Shown here one piece after another: positions 19,758 to 55,048 of a DNA stretch of 64,000 nucleotides. The translations under genes and the position numbers were made by a program. Source of the stretch: Ignavibacteriota bacterium (GTDB taxonomy: Bacteria > Bacteroidota > Ignavibacteria > Tepidaquicellales > Tepidaquicellaceae); assembly GCA_016218085.1 (NCBI GenBank), contig JACREY010000011.1, positions 62,001 to 126,000 of the forward strand, read 5' to 3'. Positions within the stretch are counted from its first letter, which is position 1, and every line of letters begins with the position of its first letter. The notes beneath the pieces were generated by a model. That model was not told the DNA's origin and ran no database searches. It saw only the letters and a list, made by a program, of their open reading frames with translations.

Positions 19758-20126
19758 TAACGTTCCTCTTAATTTTTTGGTTTTTGAAATGCGGATTTAT
19801 TTTATATCTCTATTTTGTACAATAATTAATCAATTTGAAATTAAAATTCAATTAACAAATAAAAAATATTTCCCCCTCCGCGGGGGGTACTAAACGGAGA
19901 AACTAATAAGCGACGCTGCCGCAATATAATTTTGTCTTTTTAGAGTGAAGCACTAAAATATTGCCGTCAGCTTTAGCTAACGGACAGAAGAACAAAAAAA
20001 ACGGCTTTAGCAGCATTTCCCTTTTTACAAGCTCTTCTTCCCTCGTTCCCAACGTCCTGTCGAAGACCCGCCGCGGCGGGGGAATGCAAAACCAGCTTTT
20101 GTTCTTACGCTCTCCCAACAACCTTG
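19758..20126. repeat. Repeat-rich intergenic stretch
   Basis: Holds a CCCCC-TCCG-CGGGGG mini hairpin near 19873-19887, an imperfect hairpin CCGTCAGCTTTAGCTAACGG at 19964-19983, and the palindrome CCCGCCGCGGCGGG at 20067-20080. A 75-codon open frame on the minus strand (19903-20130) runs through these repeats and looks spurious. Confidence 0.6.
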
Positions 20127-20158
20127 TCATCCCCGCGTGCTCTTAGCGGGGATCTCGC
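20124..20158. repeat. TGTCATCCCCGC palindrome, copy A
   Basis: TTGTCATCCCCGC, a 9-base loop, then GCGGGGATCTCG. It contains the last nine codons and stop of the GIY-YIG gene. Copies: inverted at 20512-20545 and in frame inside a gene at 47698-47730. Confidence 0.85.
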
Positions 20159-20504
20159 TCTTGTACTTTTCTTTAAGGAAACTCTCCAATTCATTAATTT
20201 CGCTTTCGGTAATGTAATCATAAATCAAATCTCGTAATGTCGGATTTTCTTTCTTTATTATTTCAAGTTTCCATTCCCTGTTCCATTTTTTCAAACGCTT
20301 TTCTCTTTTAATTGCAGAATATACATCTGTAAAACACTCAAAGTAAACAAGTTTTATAATCCTGTATTTTTTTGTGAATCCTTCTGTAATTTTTAACTTG
20401 TGTTCAGAAACCCTGCGGAGAAGATTATTGGTAAAGCCGGTATAAAAGACTGTGTTGTTCTTGTTCGTCAGGATGTATACATAATATGTATATACTTTTT
20501 CCAT
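20127..20504 (-). CDS. GIY-YIG nuclease, COG2827/UPF0213 type
   Basis: 125 residues. The GIY-YIG core is YYVYILTNKNNTVFYTGFTN (Y-V-Y ... Y-T-G), followed by the conserved NLLRRVSEHK, the YFECFTDVYSAIKREKRLKKW helix with the catalytic-type glutamate/lysine pattern, and NPTLRDL. The small COG2827 proteins are single-domain nucleases of unclear biological role. Here the family's normal end is extended, and the last residues, EIPAKSTRG and stop, are translated from a palindromic repeat; an inverted copy of that repeat lies just upstream of the start. The arrangement resembles a nuclease travelling with, or being hit by, the repeat. Confidence 0.85.
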   Translation of the reverse strand: MEKVYTYYVYILTNKNNTVFYTGFTNNLLRRVSEHKLKITEGFTKKYRIIKLVYFECFTDVYSAIKREKRLKKWNREWKLEIIKKENPTLRDLIYDYITESEINELESFLKEKYKSEIPAKSTRG

Positions 20505-20511
20505 TTCAGAC

Positions 20512-20545
20512 TTCGGGATCCCCGCTTAAAACATGCGGGGATGAC
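20512..20545. repeat. TGTCATCCCCGC palindrome, copy B (inverted)
   Basis: On the minus strand it reads TGTCATCCCCGC, a 9-base loop, then GCGGGGATCCCG. It lies 7 bases upstream of the GIY-YIG start. A CACCACGGCGGGTG palindrome follows at 20585-20598. Confidence 0.85.
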
Positions 20546-20617
20546 AGACGTGTTGGGTTTTTATTTTTTATTTAAGCAATACTACACCACGGCGGGTGTT
20601 AGGATTTTTTTGCAATA

Positions 20618-45776: not shown

Positions 45777-47909
45777 ATGAAAAAAATAATTCTGTTTTTA
45801 TTGCTTTTTATTCTGTCTCATTCACTTGCATCGTCTCAAACCGATGACAACGGGGCACCTTATTTTCCGCTAAGTGTGGGAAATTCTTTTTACTACAAAT
45901 GCTACGACCACGATCCGGGAGGAACCGATTCCTCATTTGTCGTCTCACGAATAACAAGCGTGAAAACAATCCAGGGAAAAAGATATTACTACTGCACAAA
46001 CTTTTTAGGAACGGCTAATAATTATTACCTGCGTTTTGACAGGGCATCGGGAAACCTTGTAAAATATGATTCTACTGCATCGGGATGCAGTTACGAACTT
46101 GCACTTTTCAGATTGTCCGCAAGTGCAGGAGATTCCTGCGGGACAACCTGCATAGGAAATTTTAATACAAAGTGCATTAGAATATTCGATACAACAATTT
46201 TTAATGTCAGTGCAAGAACAAAAATATTCAGTTATTCTTATTATAATATAAACGGATATGGAAATAAGTATGAAGTATTCTTTTCAAGGAACTTAGGCGG
46301 TCTCAGTTATTACACGGAAACTTTTACGGTCCACGCAGACCACTGGACAAAAGATATATTACAGGGATGTAAAATAAACGGAATTGTTCGGGGAGATACG
46401 GTTAATCATATAACTCCAACGTATGCAGATTCAGGAAAGTATATGCCGCTCGCTGTAGGAAATAAATGGGTATATTATAAAACATCTTATTATGGTTATC
46501 ATGATGACTACCAGTTTTCAAAAGTCGTTTCAAAAATAACAAAAGATTCTGTTATAAAAGGATTAAGGTATTATTATGTAGAAAATTTTGCGGGACCGGG
46601 TTATCCTTACTGGGTAAGATATGATGCAAACACTGGAAAATTAATTAAAAGAACGGATTTTCCTTTGTGTGGTGGAGATTTGACTTTATATAATTTTGCA
46701 TATTCTGTTGGGGATTCATCGCGTAAAGATACGTGTAGCGGTAATACAAATATTGTTTCGGGTATTTTCGATACAACTTTATTCAGTATGCATACGAAAA
46801 CCAAAGAATATAGTTTTTTATCATCAGTCTGGCACGAAGGACATTATTGGGAAACTGAATTTACTAAAAACATCGGACCAAACTACTATACTTCCAGAAC
46901 CAGCACACTCACGGGTTACAGCGGGGAAATATTCGAGTTAACCGGTTGTGTTTTGAACGGAATTGTTTACGGGGATACAACGACCGTAATTCCCCCCTCT
47001 TATGTTGATTCTTCAAGATATTTCCCGATGAAAATCGGAAATAAATATTATTATAAACGAAATTACACATATCATAGTTCGACTCCGGATACAACCATTC
47101 TTGACTCGAGCTATTATATTGTAAAGATAACCGACACAACGAGGCTCCACGGAAAACTTTATTACAAAATGAATTCTTTTATTGCCGGAACAAAAACTTA
47201 TTTCCGTCACGACCTTGACAGCGGTTTTTTGTTTTCGTATGATTCTTTAAGCTGGTGTACTAATTATCCTTATGAATTTAAGTGTTTTATGCTGAGTTCA
47301 AACGCAAACCAGGATGGAAGCGGCACCTGCTGGCTTAACAACTATTATTCAAGATGTTTCCAGATTCACGATACGAGCGCATTCGGAAACGCGCGAAAAG
47401 TAAAAGGATATATGACGAGCTGGGGTGGAACATCGGGAGGGCATTATTATACCTGGCTGTTAAAAGATATCGGAGTGTGTCAGTACGAAGGTTATTCTTA
47501 TAGCTATTCATTCGGGTCCTCCTCTACGACTAAATACAGGTTAATCGGTGCTTTTGTGGACGGCGTAAAATACGGAGATACAATTACTACCGGAATCCGA
47601 ACGATTAGCAATATTTTACCGGATAAGTTTGAGTTGTTCCAGAACTATCCAAACCCGTTTAATCCGACAACAAATATAAAATATCAGATTCCTATATTGT
47701 CATCCCCGCATGCTTTAGGCGGGGATCTCGTTCTTCTTAAAATTTACAATATTCTAGGGAAAGAGGTTACAACGCTTGTAAACGAAAAGCAATTGCCGGG
47801 AGTGTACGAGGTAACCTGGGATGCGTCAGCATTTCCTTCGGGGGTATATTTCTATACACTTGAATCACAAAGTCACAGAGACACAAAGAAAATGTTGTTG
47901 ATAAAATAA
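45777..47909 (+). CDS. T9SS cargo with three tandem YFPLxVGN domains
   Basis: 710 residues: signal peptide (ILFLLLFILSHSLASSQ), then three tandem domains of about 195 residues, each beginning Y(F/M)P(L/M)xxGNxxYYK and ending in (N)GIVxGDT-like text, with paired cysteines in each. One copy of the same domain makes up the gene at 50010. The T9SS domain follows (FQNYPNPFNPTTNIKY ... YNILGKEV ... GVYEVTWDASAFPSG ... HRDTKKMLLIK). Between its first strands lies an insert ILSSPHALGGDLVLL, translated from a TGTCATCCCCGC palindrome. The domain has no name that I know. Confidence 0.85.
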   Translation: MKKIILFLLLFILSHSLASSQTDDNGAPYFPLSVGNSFYYKCYDHDPGGTDSSFVVSRITSVKTIQGKRYYYCTNFLGTANNYYLRFDRASGNLVKYDSTASGCSYELALFRLSASAGDSCGTTCIGNFNTKCIRIFDTTIFNVSARTKIFSYSYYNINGYGNKYEVFFSRNLGGLSYYTETFTVHADHWTKDILQGCKINGIVRGDTVNHITPTYADSGKYMPLAVGNKWVYYKTSYYGYHDDYQFSKVVSKITKDSVIKGLRYYYVENFAGPGYPYWVRYDANTGKLIKRTDFPLCGGDLTLYNFAYSVGDSSRKDTCSGNTNIVSGIFDTTLFSMHTKTKEYSFLSSVWHEGHYWETEFTKNIGPNYYTSRTSTLTGYSGEIFELTGCVLNGIVYGDTTTVIPPSYVDSSRYFPMKIGNKYYYKRNYTYHSSTPDTTILDSSYYIVKITDTTRLHGKLYYKMNSFIAGTKTYFRHDLDSGFLFSYDSLSWCTNYPYEFKCFMLSSNANQDGSGTCWLNNYYSRCFQIHDTSAFGNARKVKGYMTSWGGTSGGHYYTWLLKDIGVCQYEGYSYSYSFGSSSTTKYRLIGAFVDGVKYGDTITTGIRTISNILPDKFELFQNYPNPFNPTTNIKYQIPILSSPHALGGDLVLLKIYNILGKEVTTLVNEKQLPGVYEVTWDASAFPSGVYFYTLESQSHRDTKKMLLIK
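47698..47730 (+). repeat. TGTCATCCCCGC palindrome, copy C, in frame in a gene
   Basis: TTGTCATCCCCGC, a 9-base loop, then GCGGGGATCTCG, inside the C-terminal domain of the T9SS cargo gene. It matches copy A at 20124 in all but the loop. Confidence 0.9.
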
Positions 47910-47916
47910 TTTCTAT

Positions 47917-49950
47917 ATGAAAAAATTCATACTATTGTTATTAATTGTACATTGTTCATTGAGCATTGAAGATTGTATGTGCCAGTGGGTGCAGACAGAT
48001 GGTATCTACGGAGGTAATGTTTATTACATAGAAGCTGAGGGAAACAATGCTTATTCCGTTGTTAACAGTTCATTTTACAAAACTACTAACGGCGGAATAA
48101 ACTGGTCATATGTTTTTATCGACAGTGTTGGTGTTAAAAAAATTCTTGTTAACGAAAATAATCTTTTTGCAGGAACGAATAAAGGAGTTTATCTGTCAAC
48201 AAATAATGGTGTATACTGGGTCAACAAAGGACTTACCGATTATCAGATTAATTATCTTGTTTTGAGCGGAACAGTTTTGTATGCTGGTGCAAGCAAATAT
48301 CCAAGTATCAATAGAATTTTTATGTCTACTAATAATGGAACAAACTGGACTCAGACTTCTTTTGACTTAGGATATATTCATTGTCTTGCAACCAGCGGGA
48401 ATTACTTGTTCTGCGGAACAGAATCCGGAGGAGTTTATTTTTCAACAAACAACGGGGTAAACTGGCAGCAAACAACTTTAAATAACCAGTCTGTATACTC
48501 ACTTTCTGCTAACGGAAATAGTATTTTTGCGGGCACATCAAGTAACGGAGGGTATTTATCAACAAATAACGGCACAAGCTGGGTTCAGACTACTTTAAAT
48601 AATCAATGCGTGAATTCAATTGCTATCAACGGTAGCACCGTATTTGCAGGAACGACATTTGGTGTTTACCGCTCAACGGATTTCGGAACAAGCTGGGGTT
48701 TAAATACATTAAATAATATATGTGTTTATTCCGTAAAGTCGGCCGGTAATCATATTTATGCGGGGTCATATACTTACGGAATTCATCACTCTACTAACAA
48801 CGGTTTAACGTGGAACGAAAGTTCGTTAAATTGCAGTGAAATATATTCGTTCGGTGCAAACGGAAATAATATTTTTACAGGTGTTGCGTTTGGCGGGGTT
48901 TACCTTTCAACAAACAACGGAGCGAACTGGTCACAAACATCTTTAAATAATAAAACGGTTTATTCGTTTGCTTTTTCCGGTAACAATATTTTTGCGGGAA
49001 CAGGAGAGAGCGGTGTATACTTATCTACAAATAACGGATTAAACTGGACACAGACAAGCTTAAATACAAATATTGCAAAAACCCTTGCAATTCTTGGAAA
49101 TGCCGTCTTTGCAGGTACAGTTAACGGGCTTTACATTTCGACAAACAACGGTACTAACTGGACACGTACCCGTATGGACACACTGCCAAACTATTACCCG
49201 CCGGTTAACTCTTTATTAATAAGCGGAAATAAAATTTTTGCAGGGTGCGAAAACGGTGTTTTTTATTCAACAAATAACGGAACAAACTGGATTCATTCTT
49301 TAACAGGATTATATTCTTATGGTCTGATTTCAACTGGAAATTTTATTTTTACGGTTACAAATAATGGGGTATACCGCTCAACTAATACGGGTTTAAGCTG
49401 GGCACAGGTTTTTAGTAATTCAAACAGCGTTCAGGCTTTGGCTGTAAGCGGGAATATTATTTTTGCGGGAACAGGCGCATATGGGGTATTTCTCTCAACT
49501 GATTTCGGAATAAGCTGGATTCAAAAAAGTCAGGGGTTTTATCCGTATCCAGGTATTAATACTTTATTTGTTGCCAATAATTACATTTTTGCCGGAACAC
49601 TCGGATATTCGGTCTGGCGGCGGGCTATTTCAGAAATTATAGGGGTTAAAAATATTTCTTCCGAAATTCCAAAGAGTTTTTCTCTGTTCCAGAACTATCC
49701 TAACCCGTTTAATCCGACAACAAGTATAAAGTATTCCATTCCGTCAATCGTGAATCGTCAAACGTCAATTGTAGTTTTGAAAGTATATGATATCCTCGGA
49801 AAAGAAGTTGCAACACTTGTAAACGAAAAGCAATTACCGGGGACGTATGAGGTTACTTTCGACGGGACGGCTTACCCGTCGGGGATTTATTTTTATACTC
49901 TTGAAACACAAAGTCACAGAGACACAAAGAAAATGTTGTTGATAAAATGA
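47917..49950 (+). CDS. T9SS cargo with about fourteen propeller repeats
   Basis: 677 residues with a signal peptide (FILLLLIVHCSLSIEDCMC) partly translated from a TTGTACATTGTTCATTGAGC repeat. About fourteen repeats of 40 residues follow, with consensus SxNGNxIFAGTxxxGVYLSTNNGxxWxQTSLNN, consistent with two seven-bladed propellers. The T9SS domain carries a repeat-encoded loop (SIVNRQTSIVVLK) and ends HRDTKKMLLIK. Only 7 bases separate it from the preceding gene, so the two are probably co-transcribed. The ligand is unknown. Confidence 0.88.
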   Translation: MKKFILLLLIVHCSLSIEDCMCQWVQTDGIYGGNVYYIEAEGNNAYSVVNSSFYKTTNGGINWSYVFIDSVGVKKILVNENNLFAGTNKGVYLSTNNGVYWVNKGLTDYQINYLVLSGTVLYAGASKYPSINRIFMSTNNGTNWTQTSFDLGYIHCLATSGNYLFCGTESGGVYFSTNNGVNWQQTTLNNQSVYSLSANGNSIFAGTSSNGGYLSTNNGTSWVQTTLNNQCVNSIAINGSTVFAGTTFGVYRSTDFGTSWGLNTLNNICVYSVKSAGNHIYAGSYTYGIHHSTNNGLTWNESSLNCSEIYSFGANGNNIFTGVAFGGVYLSTNNGANWSQTSLNNKTVYSFAFSGNNIFAGTGESGVYLSTNNGLNWTQTSLNTNIAKTLAILGNAVFAGTVNGLYISTNNGTNWTRTRMDTLPNYYPPVNSLLISGNKIFAGCENGVFYSTNNGTNWIHSLTGLYSYGLISTGNFIFTVTNNGVYRSTNTGLSWAQVFSNSNSVQALAVSGNIIFAGTGAYGVFLSTDFGISWIQKSQGFYPYPGINTLFVANNYIFAGTLGYSVWRRAISEIIGVKNISSEIPKSFSLFQNYPNPFNPTTSIKYSIPSIVNRQTSIVVLKVYDILGKEVATLVNEKQLPGTYEVTFDGTAYPSGIYFYTLETQSHRDTKKMLLIK

Positions 49951-50009: not shown

Positions 50010-50933
50010 ATGAAAAAAATATTTTTATTGATTATTTCGTTATTAATATTATTGTGTTCTCATTCTTTTGCAGATACTCTATCGGCAAAATATTTTCCTC
50101 TTGCAGTCGGGAATAAATGGGTGTATCTTAATGGTTCGACTTCGGGCGGTCCTTTTTATTACTCAACTTCAATAACAAGAATTACTAAAGACACCGTAAT
50201 AAACGGGAAAAAATATTTTTCTATTAACAATATTCCGTTTACAAATATTATTAATTTTTGGATTAGGTATGATTCGACAAGTGGCCAATTAAAATGGTTC
50301 AATAATATTGCCTCTTGCAACAATGAAGATATGATTTTCGATTTATCCGCAATTATAGGGGATTCCTGTAACAACTCAACAATGCCCTGTACGGTTAATA
50401 ATTACATTTGTAACTATATAAACGATTCACTTCTCTGGGGTATAAACTCAAGAGTAAAGGCATATTCATATTACTTTACAAGTTCCGGTGGGCCTGGTTT
50501 TCATACTTATAAATTTGCTAAATCGATAGGATTTTTATATTTACAATATACATATAGCGGGAATTATTTTTCCAGTACACATAGTTGGTTAAAGGGCTTT
50601 GTAATTAATGGGCAGGTTCATGGAGATACAAATACAATATCGCTGATTCAAATAAGCGGTATGGTACCCGATAAGTTTGCATTATATCAGAATTATCCCA
50701 ACCCGTTTAATCCCGTAACAAATATCAAATACCAAATAAAAAATAACAGTTTAGTAAATTTGAGAGTATATGATGTCCTCGGAAAAGAGGCGGTAACACT
50801 TGTAAACGAAAAGCAATCGCCGGGGGTTTATGAAGTAACCTGGGATGCATCGGCATATCCATCCGGTGTTTATTTTTATACCATTGAAACACAAAGCCAC
50901 AGAGACACAAAGAAAATGTTGTTGATAAAATGA
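50010..50933 (+). CDS. T9SS cargo with one YFPLxVGN domain
   Basis: 307 residues: signal peptide (IFLLIISLLILLCSHSFA), one copy (about 190 residues) of the YFPLAVGNKWVYL... domain that is triplicated in the gene at 45777, with the ending VINGQVHGDT, then the T9SS domain (YQNYPNPFNPVTNIKY ... YDVLGKEAV ... GVYEVTWDASAYPSG ... HRDTKKMLLIK). The loop after the first strand (QIKNNSLVN) is encoded by an AAATATCAAATACCAAAT tract like the intergenic repeats. Its 3' end is nearly identical to that of the preceding gene. Confidence 0.85.
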   Translation: MKKIFLLIISLLILLCSHSFADTLSAKYFPLAVGNKWVYLNGSTSGGPFYYSTSITRITKDTVINGKKYFSINNIPFTNIINFWIRYDSTSGQLKWFNNIASCNNEDMIFDLSAIIGDSCNNSTMPCTVNNYICNYINDSLLWGINSRVKAYSYYFTSSGGPGFHTYKFAKSIGFLYLQYTYSGNYFSSTHSWLKGFVINGQVHGDTNTISLIQISGMVPDKFALYQNYPNPFNPVTNIKYQIKNNSLVNLRVYDVLGKEAVTLVNEKQSPGVYEVTWDASAYPSGVYFYTIETQSHRDTKKMLLIK

Positions 50934-51006: not shown

Positions 51007-52947
51007 ATGAAATCATTTTTCAAAATTACCTTAATCATTTTTATAATTTTTTTGCTTTGCTCCGATTCTTTTTCGCAGAAGCTGAAGCCGAATTTTCAGA
51101 TAATAAGAAAAGACACATTGATTGCAATGACAGACGGGATTAAGCTCGATGTCACTGCATTCTATCCCGATACGACAAAACCCACTGCGGGCTGGCCTGC
51201 GGTGATATTCTGCCACGGATACGGCGGCTCGAAATATGATTACTTCCTCGATGCCACACAGCAGGCACAGGACGGATTCTATTGCCTCTGCTATACAATG
51301 CGCGGACAGAGGGCTTCGGAAGGATTATCCAACCTGATGAGCACAACAGAGATGAATGATTTCGTACAAGTTATAAATTATGTAAAATCAAAAACAATAG
51401 TAAACCCTAATATGATAGGGGCAATGGGCGCCTCGCAGGGCGGTACGATTCCGCTGATGGCAACGTGCTACTATCCTACATCCAATTTATTAAAAGCTAT
51501 TTGTTCGGATGTTTCCTCGCCCGAATTTGCTACAAGCTGGATTGAGAATAAAAGTGTAAAAATGTCTTTGCTCTGGACTCTGAGTTATCCCGACTCGATT
51601 GCACGCTATACAAACCAGGTGAGGGCATACAGGAACTGGATTCTGGCAGACACGCCCGACAAGTGGGACAGCCTTGCATATTATTTTCCGCTGAACAGGG
51701 ATTTTACTTCCAAACTTCACGATAACACCGTTCCGCTTTGCATAGGAGTAGTATGGCAGGATAAATTTTTTAATGCAGATGGATTTATAAAAAATCTCGG
51801 AAACATTTCGGGTCCTTACAGGATGTATTTGGGAACATTCGATGCGCACGGCGCAGACCCGAGCCAGCCGGAAACATTTTTCTATGATTGGATAACGGGA
51901 GAATGGATGGATTACTGGCTTAAGGGAATCGTAAATCATTCGCTTGACTCGAGTAAGTTTATGTATGCGGCAAGCAGTCATCCGAAAACAAATTACGTAT
52001 GGACGTGGCAAAGATATTATTCGGATGTATGGCCTCCGCTGGGAACGCAGAACATAAAATTTTATCTTCAGCCGAACGGAAGACTCTATGACCAGGAAGT
52101 TTGGAATGTGAATTACGACACGGTAAGCCTTGTCAATAATTTAATTGATACAACACTAACAATGACGGAAGCCGTGAACAGGGAGTTTACAGGGGCAATA
52201 TTCAATTCCAAGTTTGCAAAACACGAACTTGTTTTTGAAACCAAGGCACTTCTTTCGGATGCAAGAATGGCGGGAACGCCGTTTGTGAATATTCATTATA
52301 TGCCCTCGGCAAATAAATCACAATTTAATATGCAGGTTTGGGATGTTTTGCCAAACGGCACTGCAGAGCTGGTAACAAGAGCAAACTACACGGAAAGGAA
52401 CATAACTCCCGGGGTAATCAGACAGCTTTATTTTTACGGAACATCTGCCGCCCATACATTTAAAGCGGGAAATAAAATAAGGGTGATAGTAACAAATCTT
52501 GATAACCAGTCTTATGACCCTTTTTTGAGAACAAATCCTTACGTGCTTCCTTCGCTTGTGAGGGCGAGGAATAAAATGTATATGAATATGTACAATCCGA
52601 CATACATAAGACTTCCGCTAATCGGGTACACACCGATTAATGTGAATCAGATTTCGAGCACGGTGCCGGAGAGGTTTTCGCTCGTACAGAACTACCCAAA
52701 CCCGTTTAATCCGACTACAAATATCAGATATTCTATTCCGTCAAACGTGAATAGTCAATCGTCAATGGTAAAGCTTGTTGTATTCGATATCCTCGGGAAA
52801 GAAATAGCAACACTCGTTAACGAAAAGCAGTCGCCGGGAACATACGAAGTGAAATTTGGTTCCGGTGCATTGCCGAGCGGGATATATTTTTACAGGCTTA
52901 TAACAGAAAAATTTAGAGATACAAAAAAAATGATATTATTAAAATAA
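51007..52947 (+). CDS. CocE/NonD (S15) hydrolase exported by T9SS
   Basis: 646 residues: signal peptide (ITLIIFIIFLLCSDSFSQ), an alpha/beta-hydrolase domain with nucleophile serine in GAMGASQGG, aspartate in VVWQDKFFN and histidine in GTFDAHGAD, and a jelly-roll C-terminal domain (X-Pro dipeptidyl-peptidase type) before the T9SS domain. It should cleave esters or X-Pro dipeptides outside the cell. The T9SS loop (SNVNSQSSMVKLV) is repeat-encoded, and the domain ends FRDTKKMILLK. Lipase-like roles are an alternative. Confidence 0.87.
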   Translation: MKSFFKITLIIFIIFLLCSDSFSQKLKPNFQIIRKDTLIAMTDGIKLDVTAFYPDTTKPTAGWPAVIFCHGYGGSKYDYFLDATQQAQDGFYCLCYTMRGQRASEGLSNLMSTTEMNDFVQVINYVKSKTIVNPNMIGAMGASQGGTIPLMATCYYPTSNLLKAICSDVSSPEFATSWIENKSVKMSLLWTLSYPDSIARYTNQVRAYRNWILADTPDKWDSLAYYFPLNRDFTSKLHDNTVPLCIGVVWQDKFFNADGFIKNLGNISGPYRMYLGTFDAHGADPSQPETFFYDWITGEWMDYWLKGIVNHSLDSSKFMYAASSHPKTNYVWTWQRYYSDVWPPLGTQNIKFYLQPNGRLYDQEVWNVNYDTVSLVNNLIDTTLTMTEAVNREFTGAIFNSKFAKHELVFETKALLSDARMAGTPFVNIHYMPSANKSQFNMQVWDVLPNGTAELVTRANYTERNITPGVIRQLYFYGTSAAHTFKAGNKIRVIVTNLDNQSYDPFLRTNPYVLPSLVRARNKMYMNMYNPTYIRLPLIGYTPINVNQISSTVPERFSLVQNYPNPFNPTTNIRYSIPSNVNSQSSMVKLVVFDILGKEIATLVNEKQSPGTYEVKFGSGALPSGIYFYRLITEKFRDTKKMILLK

Positions 52948-53035: not shown

Positions 53036-55048
53036 ATGAAAAAGATATTTTTGTTTTTACTTATTTTACTTTTGTTCTCAAAAAAAGATTTATACTCACA
53101 ATGGGTACAATCGGGTGGCCCGATTGGAGGAACCGTTTACTCGCTTACCACGATAGGTTCAAATGTTTTCGCAGGAACACTCTACGGAGGAGTTTACCTT
53201 TCAACAGACAATGGGCAAAACTGGAATCCAACCTCTCTTCGGGGATATAATGTCCTGTCGATTAGAAACAAAGGAATAAATATTTATGCGGGTTGTTACG
53301 CATACGGAATATTTTTGTCAACCAATAACGGTCTAAACTGGAGCTGGACATCACTAAATAATCAAACGGTTTTTTCTATAGCATCCGGCGAAACAAATAT
53401 TTTTGCGGGCGTTTCATATAACGGAATTTTAATTTCGTCAAATAACGGGCAAAACTGGACTCAGTCTTCATTGAACAATAAGACGGTTTACTCAATTTCC
53501 CTGTATGGGTCAACAATATTTGCCGGAACACTGTTAAACGGTATCTACTCGTCCACAAATAACGGATTAAACTGGGTTCAAACATCCTTAAATGGTAAAA
53601 CCGTACGAACGATAATAACCCATAACAATAAAATTTTTGCGGGACTGGACTCCGGTGTTTATATATCATCAAACGGAGGGCAAAGCTGGTATCAAAGTTC
53701 GTTAAACAATAAAGTCGTTTATTCTCTAGAATCTGATAGTGTCAGCCTTTTTGCGGGAACATACAAAAACGGAATTTACCGATCCACAGATAATGGCTTA
53801 ACATGGACTCAAATGGCCATTAGCAATAAAACAATAAATACAATTACGATAAACAACAGCCGTGTTTTTACCGGAACTGACAGCTCGGGAATTTTTTTGT
53901 CGTCTGACAACGGGCTTTCATGGGAACAGTCACCTTTAAAAAACATTATAATTCTTTCTCAGGCAAATGACGGAGCAAATATATATTCCGGAACAAAGGG
54001 TTATGGTGTATTTTTGTCTTCTAATAACGGTGTAAACTGGATTCAGGCCGGTTTAAGTAACAGGGAGATATTATCTTTTTTGATAAAAGAGAATAATATT
54101 TATGCCGGAACTTCAGGATACGGGGTGTATATATCTACAAATGGCGGACAATCATGGGTTCAGAACGGATTAAATTCGCAAAGTGTTTATTCGATTGCCA
54201 AAAATGACACGTTTATATTCGCGGGAACAGGGGGCGGAGTATGCGTTACATCCAATAACGGACAGAATTGGATTCAGACATTTTCCTCTTCCTGGGTTAC
54301 ATCTGTTTCTGTAAATGGTTCGACTATTTTTGCGGGAACACCTAATTATAACATTTACAAATCAACGAATAACGGACAGAATTGGATTCAGGTCATAATT
54401 CCAAATCAAAATTATATTAATACGCTTGCTAATATAAGTACTTTTATTTTAGCCGGAACACCGGATGGCGCATATCTTTCCTCAAATTCCGGAGCGAACT
54501 GGGTAAAGACTCTTTACAGTGAGTCGGTGTTATCTTTTACAGTAAGCGGACAAAATGTGTTTGCGGGTACATGGGGATCTGGCGTTTATCTATCAAGGGA
54601 CAATGGGGTGAGTTGGATAAAAAAAAGCGAGGGATTAGGTGTCATGAGAGTTAATTCTTTAATTGTTAGTAATGGTTATCTTTTTGCTGGAACAGATGGT
54701 TATTCTGTGTGGCAACGCTCAATTCAGGAAATTATAAGAATAAAACAAATCTCAAATACTGTTCCCGATAAGTTTTCACTTGAACAAAATTACCCCAACC
54801 CGTTTAATCCGACTACGAGTATAAGGTATTCTATCCCGTCAATCGTGAATCGTCAAGCGTCAATGGTTAAGCTTGTTGTATTTGACATTCTCGGGAAAGA
54901 GGTAGCAGTGCTGGTTAACGAAAAGCAGTCGCCGGGAACGTATGAGGTGAAATTTGACGGAACAAATCTGCCCTCAGGCGTGTATTACTATAAACTGGCA
55001 ATTGATAATGTACCATATTCGGTTAAAAAAATGGTGTTACTCAAATAG
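53036..55048 (+). CDS. T9SS cargo with fourteen propeller repeats
   Basis: 670 residues and a paralogue of the gene at 47917: signal peptide (IFLFLLILLLFSKKDLYS), fourteen repeats with the core IFAGTxxxGIYxSTNNGxxWxQ, and a T9SS domain whose loop (SIVNRQASMVKLV) is almost the same as in the paralogue and in the S15 gene. It ends SVKKMVLLK. Equal repeat number in both paralogues fits two seven-bladed propellers per protein. It is preceded by a separate 88-base gap, so it may have its own promoter. Confidence 0.88.
   Translation: MKKIFLFLLILLLFSKKDLYSQWVQSGGPIGGTVYSLTTIGSNVFAGTLYGGVYLSTDNGQNWNPTSLRGYNVLSIRNKGINIYAGCYAYGIFLSTNNGLNWSWTSLNNQTVFSIASGETNIFAGVSYNGILISSNNGQNWTQSSLNNKTVYSISLYGSTIFAGTLLNGIYSSTNNGLNWVQTSLNGKTVRTIITHNNKIFAGLDSGVYISSNGGQSWYQSSLNNKVVYSLESDSVSLFAGTYKNGIYRSTDNGLTWTQMAISNKTINTITINNSRVFTGTDSSGIFLSSDNGLSWEQSPLKNIIILSQANDGANIYSGTKGYGVFLSSNNGVNWIQAGLSNREILSFLIKENNIYAGTSGYGVYISTNGGQSWVQNGLNSQSVYSIAKNDTFIFAGTGGGVCVTSNNGQNWIQTFSSSWVTSVSVNGSTIFAGTPNYNIYKSTNNGQNWIQVIIPNQNYINTLANISTFILAGTPDGAYLSSNSGANWVKTLYSESVLSFTVSGQNVFAGTWGSGVYLSRDNGVSWIKKSEGLGVMRVNSLIVSNGYLFAGTDGYSVWQRSIQEIIRIKQISNTVPDKFSLEQNYPNPFNPTTSIRYSIPSIVNRQASMVKLVVFDILGKEVAVLVNEKQSPGTYEVKFDGTNLPSGVYYYKLAIDNVPYSVKKMVLLK

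Follow-up and report, generated by a model that had tools for sequence, protein, structure and literature searches.

We consider it likely that a TGTC-tagged REP palindrome, related to the CGTC repeats, has landed in frame in a loop of a type IX sorting domain, that this loop is a recurrent site of such landings, and that the REPs are the non-autonomous ends of a GIY-YIG element. The role of the enzyme, the cause of the excess of copies in the loop, and the production and secretion of the proteins are inferences within this reading, made without enzymatic or mobility data. The DNA analysed, here called the window, is a stretch of 64,000 nucleotides from an Ignavibacteriota bacterium (G000:C2:62001-126000), whose genome assembly, G000, comprises 3.31 Mb in 22 contigs.

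The palindrome and its host protein

The features concerned are the following.

45777-47909, + strand: insert-bearing ORF of 710 aa, a predicted secreted protein with a type IX C-terminal sorting domain (ORF and profile matches)
47646-47897, + strand: the type IX sorting domain of this ORF, with the insert in a loop between two predicted strands
47698-47730, + strand: TGTC-tagged REP palindrome (tag TGTC, stem ATCCCCGC/GCGGGGAT, 9-nt loop, tail CTCG), coding for LSSPHALGGDL

The sequence at 47698-47730, 33 bases long, is TGTC-AT-CCCCGC-ATGCTTTAG-GCGGGG-AT-CTCG, i.e. TGTCATCCCCGC-ATGCTTTAG-GCGGGGAT-CTCG, and lies in frame in the ORF. The initial annotation of this DNA had described a palindrome here, and its presence is confirmed; the reading frame of the ORF yields (L)SSPHALGGD(L), which agrees with the peptide SSPHALGGD given at that time. 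The six-base stem then reported, CCCCGC/GCGGGG, is present but too short, as the AT preceding CCCCGC also pairs with the AT following GCGGGG, giving a stem of 8 bp (RNA fold -14.6 kcal/mol). An Rfam scan of the whole window returned no matches at gathering thresholds. The host domain is a member of the type IX type A sorting domains by the curated cut-offs of both profiles (TIGR04183, 33.4 bits against a cut-off of 23; PF18962, 35.5 bits against 27), and differs from them by the extra loop, the REP insert lengthening the domain by about 8 residues.

In a structure predicted from eight sorting domains of the window, strands at residues 29-35 and 51-55 flank the insert, and the REP-coded residues 40-47 have the lowest confidence outside the N-terminus. 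The model is weak, with a mean pLDDT of 65.5. A fold search gave as its best match 8glk_D, the structure of a type IX substrate, at an E value of 0.0019, with no match reaching 0.001; this match is only consistent with the assignment.

Free copies of the palindrome in the genome

The 12-mer TGTCATCCCCGC occurs three times in the window at no more than one mismatch, compared to 0.21 occurrences expected, a number reached in none of 100 shuffles. Across the 3.31-Mb genome it is found 19 times, with no match for a reversed-pattern control, and the strict form, which requires both arms, has 17 copies on seven contigs, again with none for the reversed control. Taking the 12-mer and strict searches together, the TGTC tag is present in the window copy and in 16 of the 17 strict copies of the genome. 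Exact matches to the 28-bp core of the window copy lie at G000:C2:171139 and C12:66597, neither of which is covered by an ORF of 60 aa or more. A further sorting-domain copy, on contig C14, is identical not to the window variant but to another free variant (C2:53093, C2:82518, C3:78272 and C22:17226). Each of the two strict sorting-domain copies of this genome thus matches a different free variant exactly, a result that points to two or more separate acquisitions from among the free copies.

Sorting domains with and without the insert

Several paralogous sorting domains are encoded downstream of the insert-bearing ORF, as seen from domain alignment.

49633-49947, + strand: paralogous sorting domain with another insert, SIVNRQTSI, in the same loop
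50631-50930, + strand: paralogous sorting domain, closely related (73% identity over the domain) and free of the insert, with the loop KNNSL; the empty site within the window, 3 kb downstream
52630-52944, + strand: paralogous sorting domain with the insert SNVNSQSSM in the same loop
54728-55045, + strand: paralogous sorting domain with the insert SIVNRQASM in the same loop

The initial annotation had proposed comparing orthologues to find an empty site, and one is observed in the sister species G001, where the best match, 56% identical over the full length of the protein, has the short loop SVQN and no insert. At only 56% identity this loop cannot serve as a base-exact empty site. The paralogue comparison uses three alignment rows, a stretch of L338, badly chosen and not aligning, being left out. 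From the empty loops of the paralogue at 50631-50930 and of the G001 orthologue it follows that the insert adds about 8 residues, and a short loop is evidently the usual state, since 43 of the 56 sorting domains of G000 caught by a regular expression have a loop of seven residues or fewer.

The earlier statement that paralogues lack the palindrome holds for most of them but not for all: C14:125946-125973, encoding VLSSPHVLSGDPVLLK, and C8:174830, encoding KMSSLHALSGDLVLLK, bear it at the same position of the sorting domain and in the same frame as the window insert. The description of the palindrome as a mobile one that has become coding sequence is supported by the empty G001 orthologue, the empty paralogue at 50631-50930 and the exact matches to free variants. 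Recurrence at this site across the order, the fit to the CGTC REP superfamily and the part of the GIY-YIG gene go beyond what had been noticed before.

The three neighbouring domains at 49633-49947, 52630-52944 and 54728-55045 share an insert of the type SIVNRQ.S, with DNA of the form tcaatcgtgaatcgtcaa... Within the window and the G000 loci examined, no insert of this type was found outside sorting domains, the two distinct matches both lying inside them, so that no claim of a dispersed repeat is made for it. The 3.3-Mb genome G000 encodes at least 150 type IX sorting domains (150 scored among 246 candidates).

Recurrence at the same loop across the order

A pattern combining the sorting-domain motif with a following CCCG..CGGG matched 93 times, in 25 of the 44 genomes of the order, and the control not at all. 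By manual reading 32 of the 93 are TGTC-type REPs, of which 24 pass the REP finder, six are degenerate and two were not run through the finder. The remainder are mostly ordinary codons (e.g. IPESG) or other repeats, nine of them with a GTAGAGACG..CGTCTC palindrome. Loop REPs occur in both orientations, the forward ones reading SSPH..GGDLV and the reverse ones DSRIRGND or GFPIGAFGND. A single frame is common to 12 of the 13 forward inserts, the exception being L370 of G005 (CHSCESRNP), and two of the three forward frames are open in REPs of the G000 type; a frame preference of forward inserts is likely, and rests on few independent events. With a reverse-type pattern, 17 places were found in 11 of 391 genomes of the class. 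Those bearing a palindrome are all in the order of the window, and the matches in five genomes outside it look like chance codons. The sorting-domain loop is thus observed to be an insertion hotspot in this order.

Other repeats have been seen in the same loop. At L358-L365, in four genomes (G026, G028, G030 and G034), it holds a GTAGAGACGACCCGGCGGGTCGTCTC palindrome that looks GTAG-tagged, and at L369, L371, L373 and L376 of G005 it holds repeats of the type CCCCCCTT..AAGGGGGG, encoding SPLRRGAGGM. The loop is long in 15 of 17 sampled sorting domains of G005.

Tolerance, copying or constraint

In five relatives (G001, G005, G008, G027 and G043), 14 of 61 REP copies lie in the sorting-domain loop (7/19 in G043, 3/9 in G008, 3/26 in G005 and 1/7 in G001; the last pattern used found no REP in G027). 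Uniform insertion would place 0.06 copies there, and a loop as tolerant as intergenic DNA 0.3-0.5, so that the excess over intergenic-like tolerance is about 30-fold. These expectations assume a 15-nt target, 150-246 domains per genome and about 10% intergenic DNA (9.6%, taken from this window only), and 14/61 is not an order-wide average, as G005, G008 and G043 were picked because inserts had already been seen in them. It could be argued that REPs insert at random everywhere and that the loop is merely one of the rare coding sites that bear them without damage, and both the presence of other, unrelated inserts in the loop and the predicted structure, which places the insert in a flexible loop, are in keeping with such tolerance. 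The numbers are not: intergenic-like tolerance predicts 0.1-0.2 copies in G000, where two are seen, and the same 0.3-0.5 in the five relatives against the 14 found there, and we regard tolerance alone as a rather unlikely explanation. A constraint on the peptide, under which the turn is favoured for the sake of the protein and its resemblance to a REP is convergent, is hardly credible. The frame kept by 12 of the 13 forward inserts makes protein-level selection on frame likely, yet the 28-bp identity with free copies contradicts convergence; and where the initial annotation would have taken the same peptide without similarity at the DNA level as a refutation of mobility, the opposite is found, different repeats putting quite different peptides into the same place.

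A single insertion into one sorting domain, followed by spread through duplication or short-tract gene conversion, remains possible, though we doubt that it is the main explanation. The flanks speak on both sides. Near the insert, the flanks of domains that bear it resemble each other more closely than average in G000 (three such domains versus others: left 0.80 vs 0.74 and near right 0.77 vs 0.62) and in G008 (near right 0.85 vs 0.60), so that short-tract copying between sorting domains is not excluded and may contribute, whereas in G005 the flanks show no resemblance beyond background (left 0.76 vs 0.76; near right 0.77 vs 0.72; far right 0.66 vs 0.67). Copying would also fit the common frame of the forward inserts, three sorting-domain copies of G043 that share a loop form, ATGG..TTGG, absent from the listed free copies of that genome, and the G043 domains L329 and L330, which are near-duplicates. 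Against it stand the exact matches of the two strict G000 copies to different free variants, as well as the occurrence of both orientations, several palindrome variants and unrelated repeats in the one loop. This comparison rests on flank identity and not on a tree, and draws on the 88 domains that passed the regular expression, a part of those retrieved.

A GIY-YIG nuclease gene between inverted REPs

The other two REPs of the window form an inverted pair, tags outward, around a GIY-YIG gene (20125-20546), the arrangement asked of the REPtron-like unit proposed here.

20125-20153, + strand: REP at the 3' end of the GIY-YIG gene, tag outward (strict palindrome search)
20127-20504, - strand: small GIY-YIG nuclease, the proposed mobiliser, its last codons and stop lying within the REP at 20125-20153 (PF01541, 61.1 bits)
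20518-20546, - strand: REP 5' of the GIY-YIG gene, inverted, tag outward (strict palindrome search)

The resemblance noted earlier between the palindrome at 47698-47730 and a copy at the end of the GIY-YIG gene is real, and it is the copy at 20125-20153 that supplies the last codons of that gene.

The same association is observed well beyond the window. A search of 42 relatives gave 55 related GIY-YIG matches at E ≤ 1.5e-20, from which 54 distinct genes were examined. A TGTC-type REP lies within 300 bp of 29 of these 54, compared to one of 17 distant GIY-YIG genes (Fisher P 0.0005), and the inverted, tag-outward pair is present at 16 of the 54 versus none of the 17. Among 80 GIY-YIG loci from named genome records, such a REP was found at 55, REPs on both sides at 43 and the inverted tag-outward pair at 36, tags pointing outward in 50 of 70 upstream and 51 of 70 downstream REPs; the background of the finder at more than 600 bp from a GIY-YIG gene was 13 matches in 124,544 bp. 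Taxa with pairs include Bacteroidota families, Bradyrhizobium, Patescibacteria, Omnitrophota, Chloroflexi, Cloacimonadota, Armatimonadota and a Mesoaciditogaceae bacterium, many of them represented by MAGs; loci of this sort are also present in Flavobacteriaceae, e.g. Hanstruepera. Over both sets, 52 of 132 GIY-YIG genes, from many phyla, have the pair, its REPs lying mostly 15-55 bp upstream and 4-50 bp downstream of the gene; no recognised inverted pair was found at the other 80 of the 132, some of which have other palindromes beside them.

Similarity between the two REPs of one gene exceeds that between REPs from different genes (0.76 vs 0.38, permutation P 1e-4), a comparison not corrected for relatedness. 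In 14 of 86 locus pairs at 70% identity or more, including L283 and L284 of a single genome, the limits of homology lie no more than 12 nt from both outer tags; in the other 72 they do not, mostly since homology stops inside the unit. The number of REPs correlates only weakly with that of GIY-YIG genes (Spearman 0.40, P 0.009, 42 genomes), using a REP pattern that covers only CCCGC-type stems. REPs are also present in 11 of 18 genomes without a detected GIY-YIG gene; spread of REPs as non-autonomous copies, gene loss, incompleteness of the MAGs or an error in the hypothesis could each account for this. Across 22 aligned GIY-YIG sequences, the Tyr, Arg, Glu and Asn positions of the catalytic site are invariant or nearly so.

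A Flavivirga locus (L246) contains three tandem copies of the unit of GIY-YIG gene and REPs, repeating about every 500 bp. Elsewhere in G000 a second GIY-YIG gene, 52% identical (G000:C8:117905-118234, L189), is bracketed by a different REP, TGTCATCCCGGCGGATTTTAGGCCGGGATCCA, which suggests that each nuclease lineage has its own palindrome.

A mover of another kind would be a Y1 (RAYT-like) tyrosine transposase, of the sort suggested for GTAG REPs; genes for Y1 transposases are present in 36 of the 42 genomes. No REP pair, however, was found at any of 20 Y1 loci, where the finder gave three matches in 57,987 bp, of which one looks real, and the 2013 survey likewise reported no tyrosine transposase with CGTC repeats on its flanks (PMC3733652). 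We consider this mover very improbable, and retain the GIY-YIG nuclease as the candidate.

Relation to known repeat systems

The CGTC REPs described by Di Nocera et al. (2013; PMC3733652) are often TGTC-tagged, have stems that start with AT, and occur in several phyla, including Chlorobi and Bacteroidetes, sometimes within genes. According to that account, they lack associated transposase genes and seem to have no dedicated transposase (PMC3733652). The repeats studied here resemble this superfamily in the terminal tag, there CGTC and often TGTC, in the AT-starting stem and in the short unpaired tail, and are likewise dispersed and mostly intergenic, with dimers and with copies inside ORFs, as are known there (PMC3733652). 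They differ in the loop, of 9 nt in the window compared to 4-5 nt there, with exceptions reported, in the tail, CTC(G) rather than the consensus CCA, and in the GIY-YIG nuclease gene bracketed by REPs, where the survey records no associated transposase (PMC3733652). The window element thus meets the tests of a TGTC tag, an AT-starting stem of 8 bp (8-9 bp being asked) and dispersal in multiple copies, but neither the usual 4-5 nt loop nor the CCA tail. Because the loop length is not met, the palindrome is filed as a variant and not among the four CGTC families. Relatives also have REP forms with a 4-nt loop, and the tail is CCA or CTA at many other REP loci of the named-record GIY-YIG set.

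Rickettsia palindromic elements are similar in their mode of insertion only, being palindromic repeats in frame inside protein-coding genes. The examples that the survey lists are at differing sites in genes of various kinds (PMC3733652), whereas here one loop of one domain family has received several repeats; two of them, RPE-4 and RPE-6, are given there as CGTC REPs (PMC3733652).

GTAG REPs with their RAYT genes (REPtrons) offer a parallel in architecture, i.e. a small enzyme gene flanked by inverted REPs of the matching type, while other, non-autonomous copies are scattered elsewhere. The window tag is, however, TGTC and not GTAG, the enzyme is a GIY-YIG nuclease instead of an HUH tyrosine transposase, and, with no REP pair at the 20 Y1 loci, the tests for a GTAG REP/RAYT system are not met. 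The GIY-YIG protein matches TIGR01453, a model of GIY-YIG homing endonucleases, only weakly. Those enzymes share with it the GIY-YIG catalytic domain and a selfish-gene logic, and differ in that here there is no intron and the protein is a REP-bracketed single domain of about 100-125 aa.

Proposed mechanism and significance

We propose that the GIY-YIG nuclease mobilises these REPs, an action on the REP that is inferred from gene neighbourhood and not demonstrated. The palindrome would be a TGTC-tagged REP related to the CGTC superfamily, inserted in frame between two putative beta-strands of the type IX sorting domain, where its codons may make a hydrophilic turn (SSPHALGGD) that the domain tolerates. 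REPs of this sort most likely form the termini, themselves non-autonomous, of a small element with a GIY-YIG gene between its two inverted REPs. Cleavage of REP hairpins or of targets by the nuclease would be followed by repair, in which a REP is copied into the break. Insertions into most genes would presumably be lost, and those in the sorting-domain loop that keep an open frame could persist. As a recurrent landing site, the loop would have received REPs of several variants and of either orientation, through separate events in different genes and genera of the order.

No paper linking GIY-YIG nucleases with REPs, or palindromes with sorting domains, was found in the open-access literature, subscription papers and preprints being outside the search. 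To our knowledge, and within the literature searched, both the recurrent insertion into a single protein loop and the bracketing of GIY-YIG genes by REPs are new.

On balance, if only by a little, we favour a wider view, in which CGTC/TGTC REPs are the ends and the non-autonomous offspring of widespread tiny elements with a single-domain GIY-YIG enzyme, and in which, in this order, the sorting-domain loop has been colonised so often that secreted proteins have been shaped by it. If this is true, a repeat superfamily spread over many phyla and described as lacking an enzyme would gain a candidate for one, and the question would become testable by means of one gene (about 375 bp) and one palindrome (about 30 bp). 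A protein domain would, moreover, have served as a repeated landing site, through which many secreted proteins of one genome acquire new peptide loops from mobile DNA at once.
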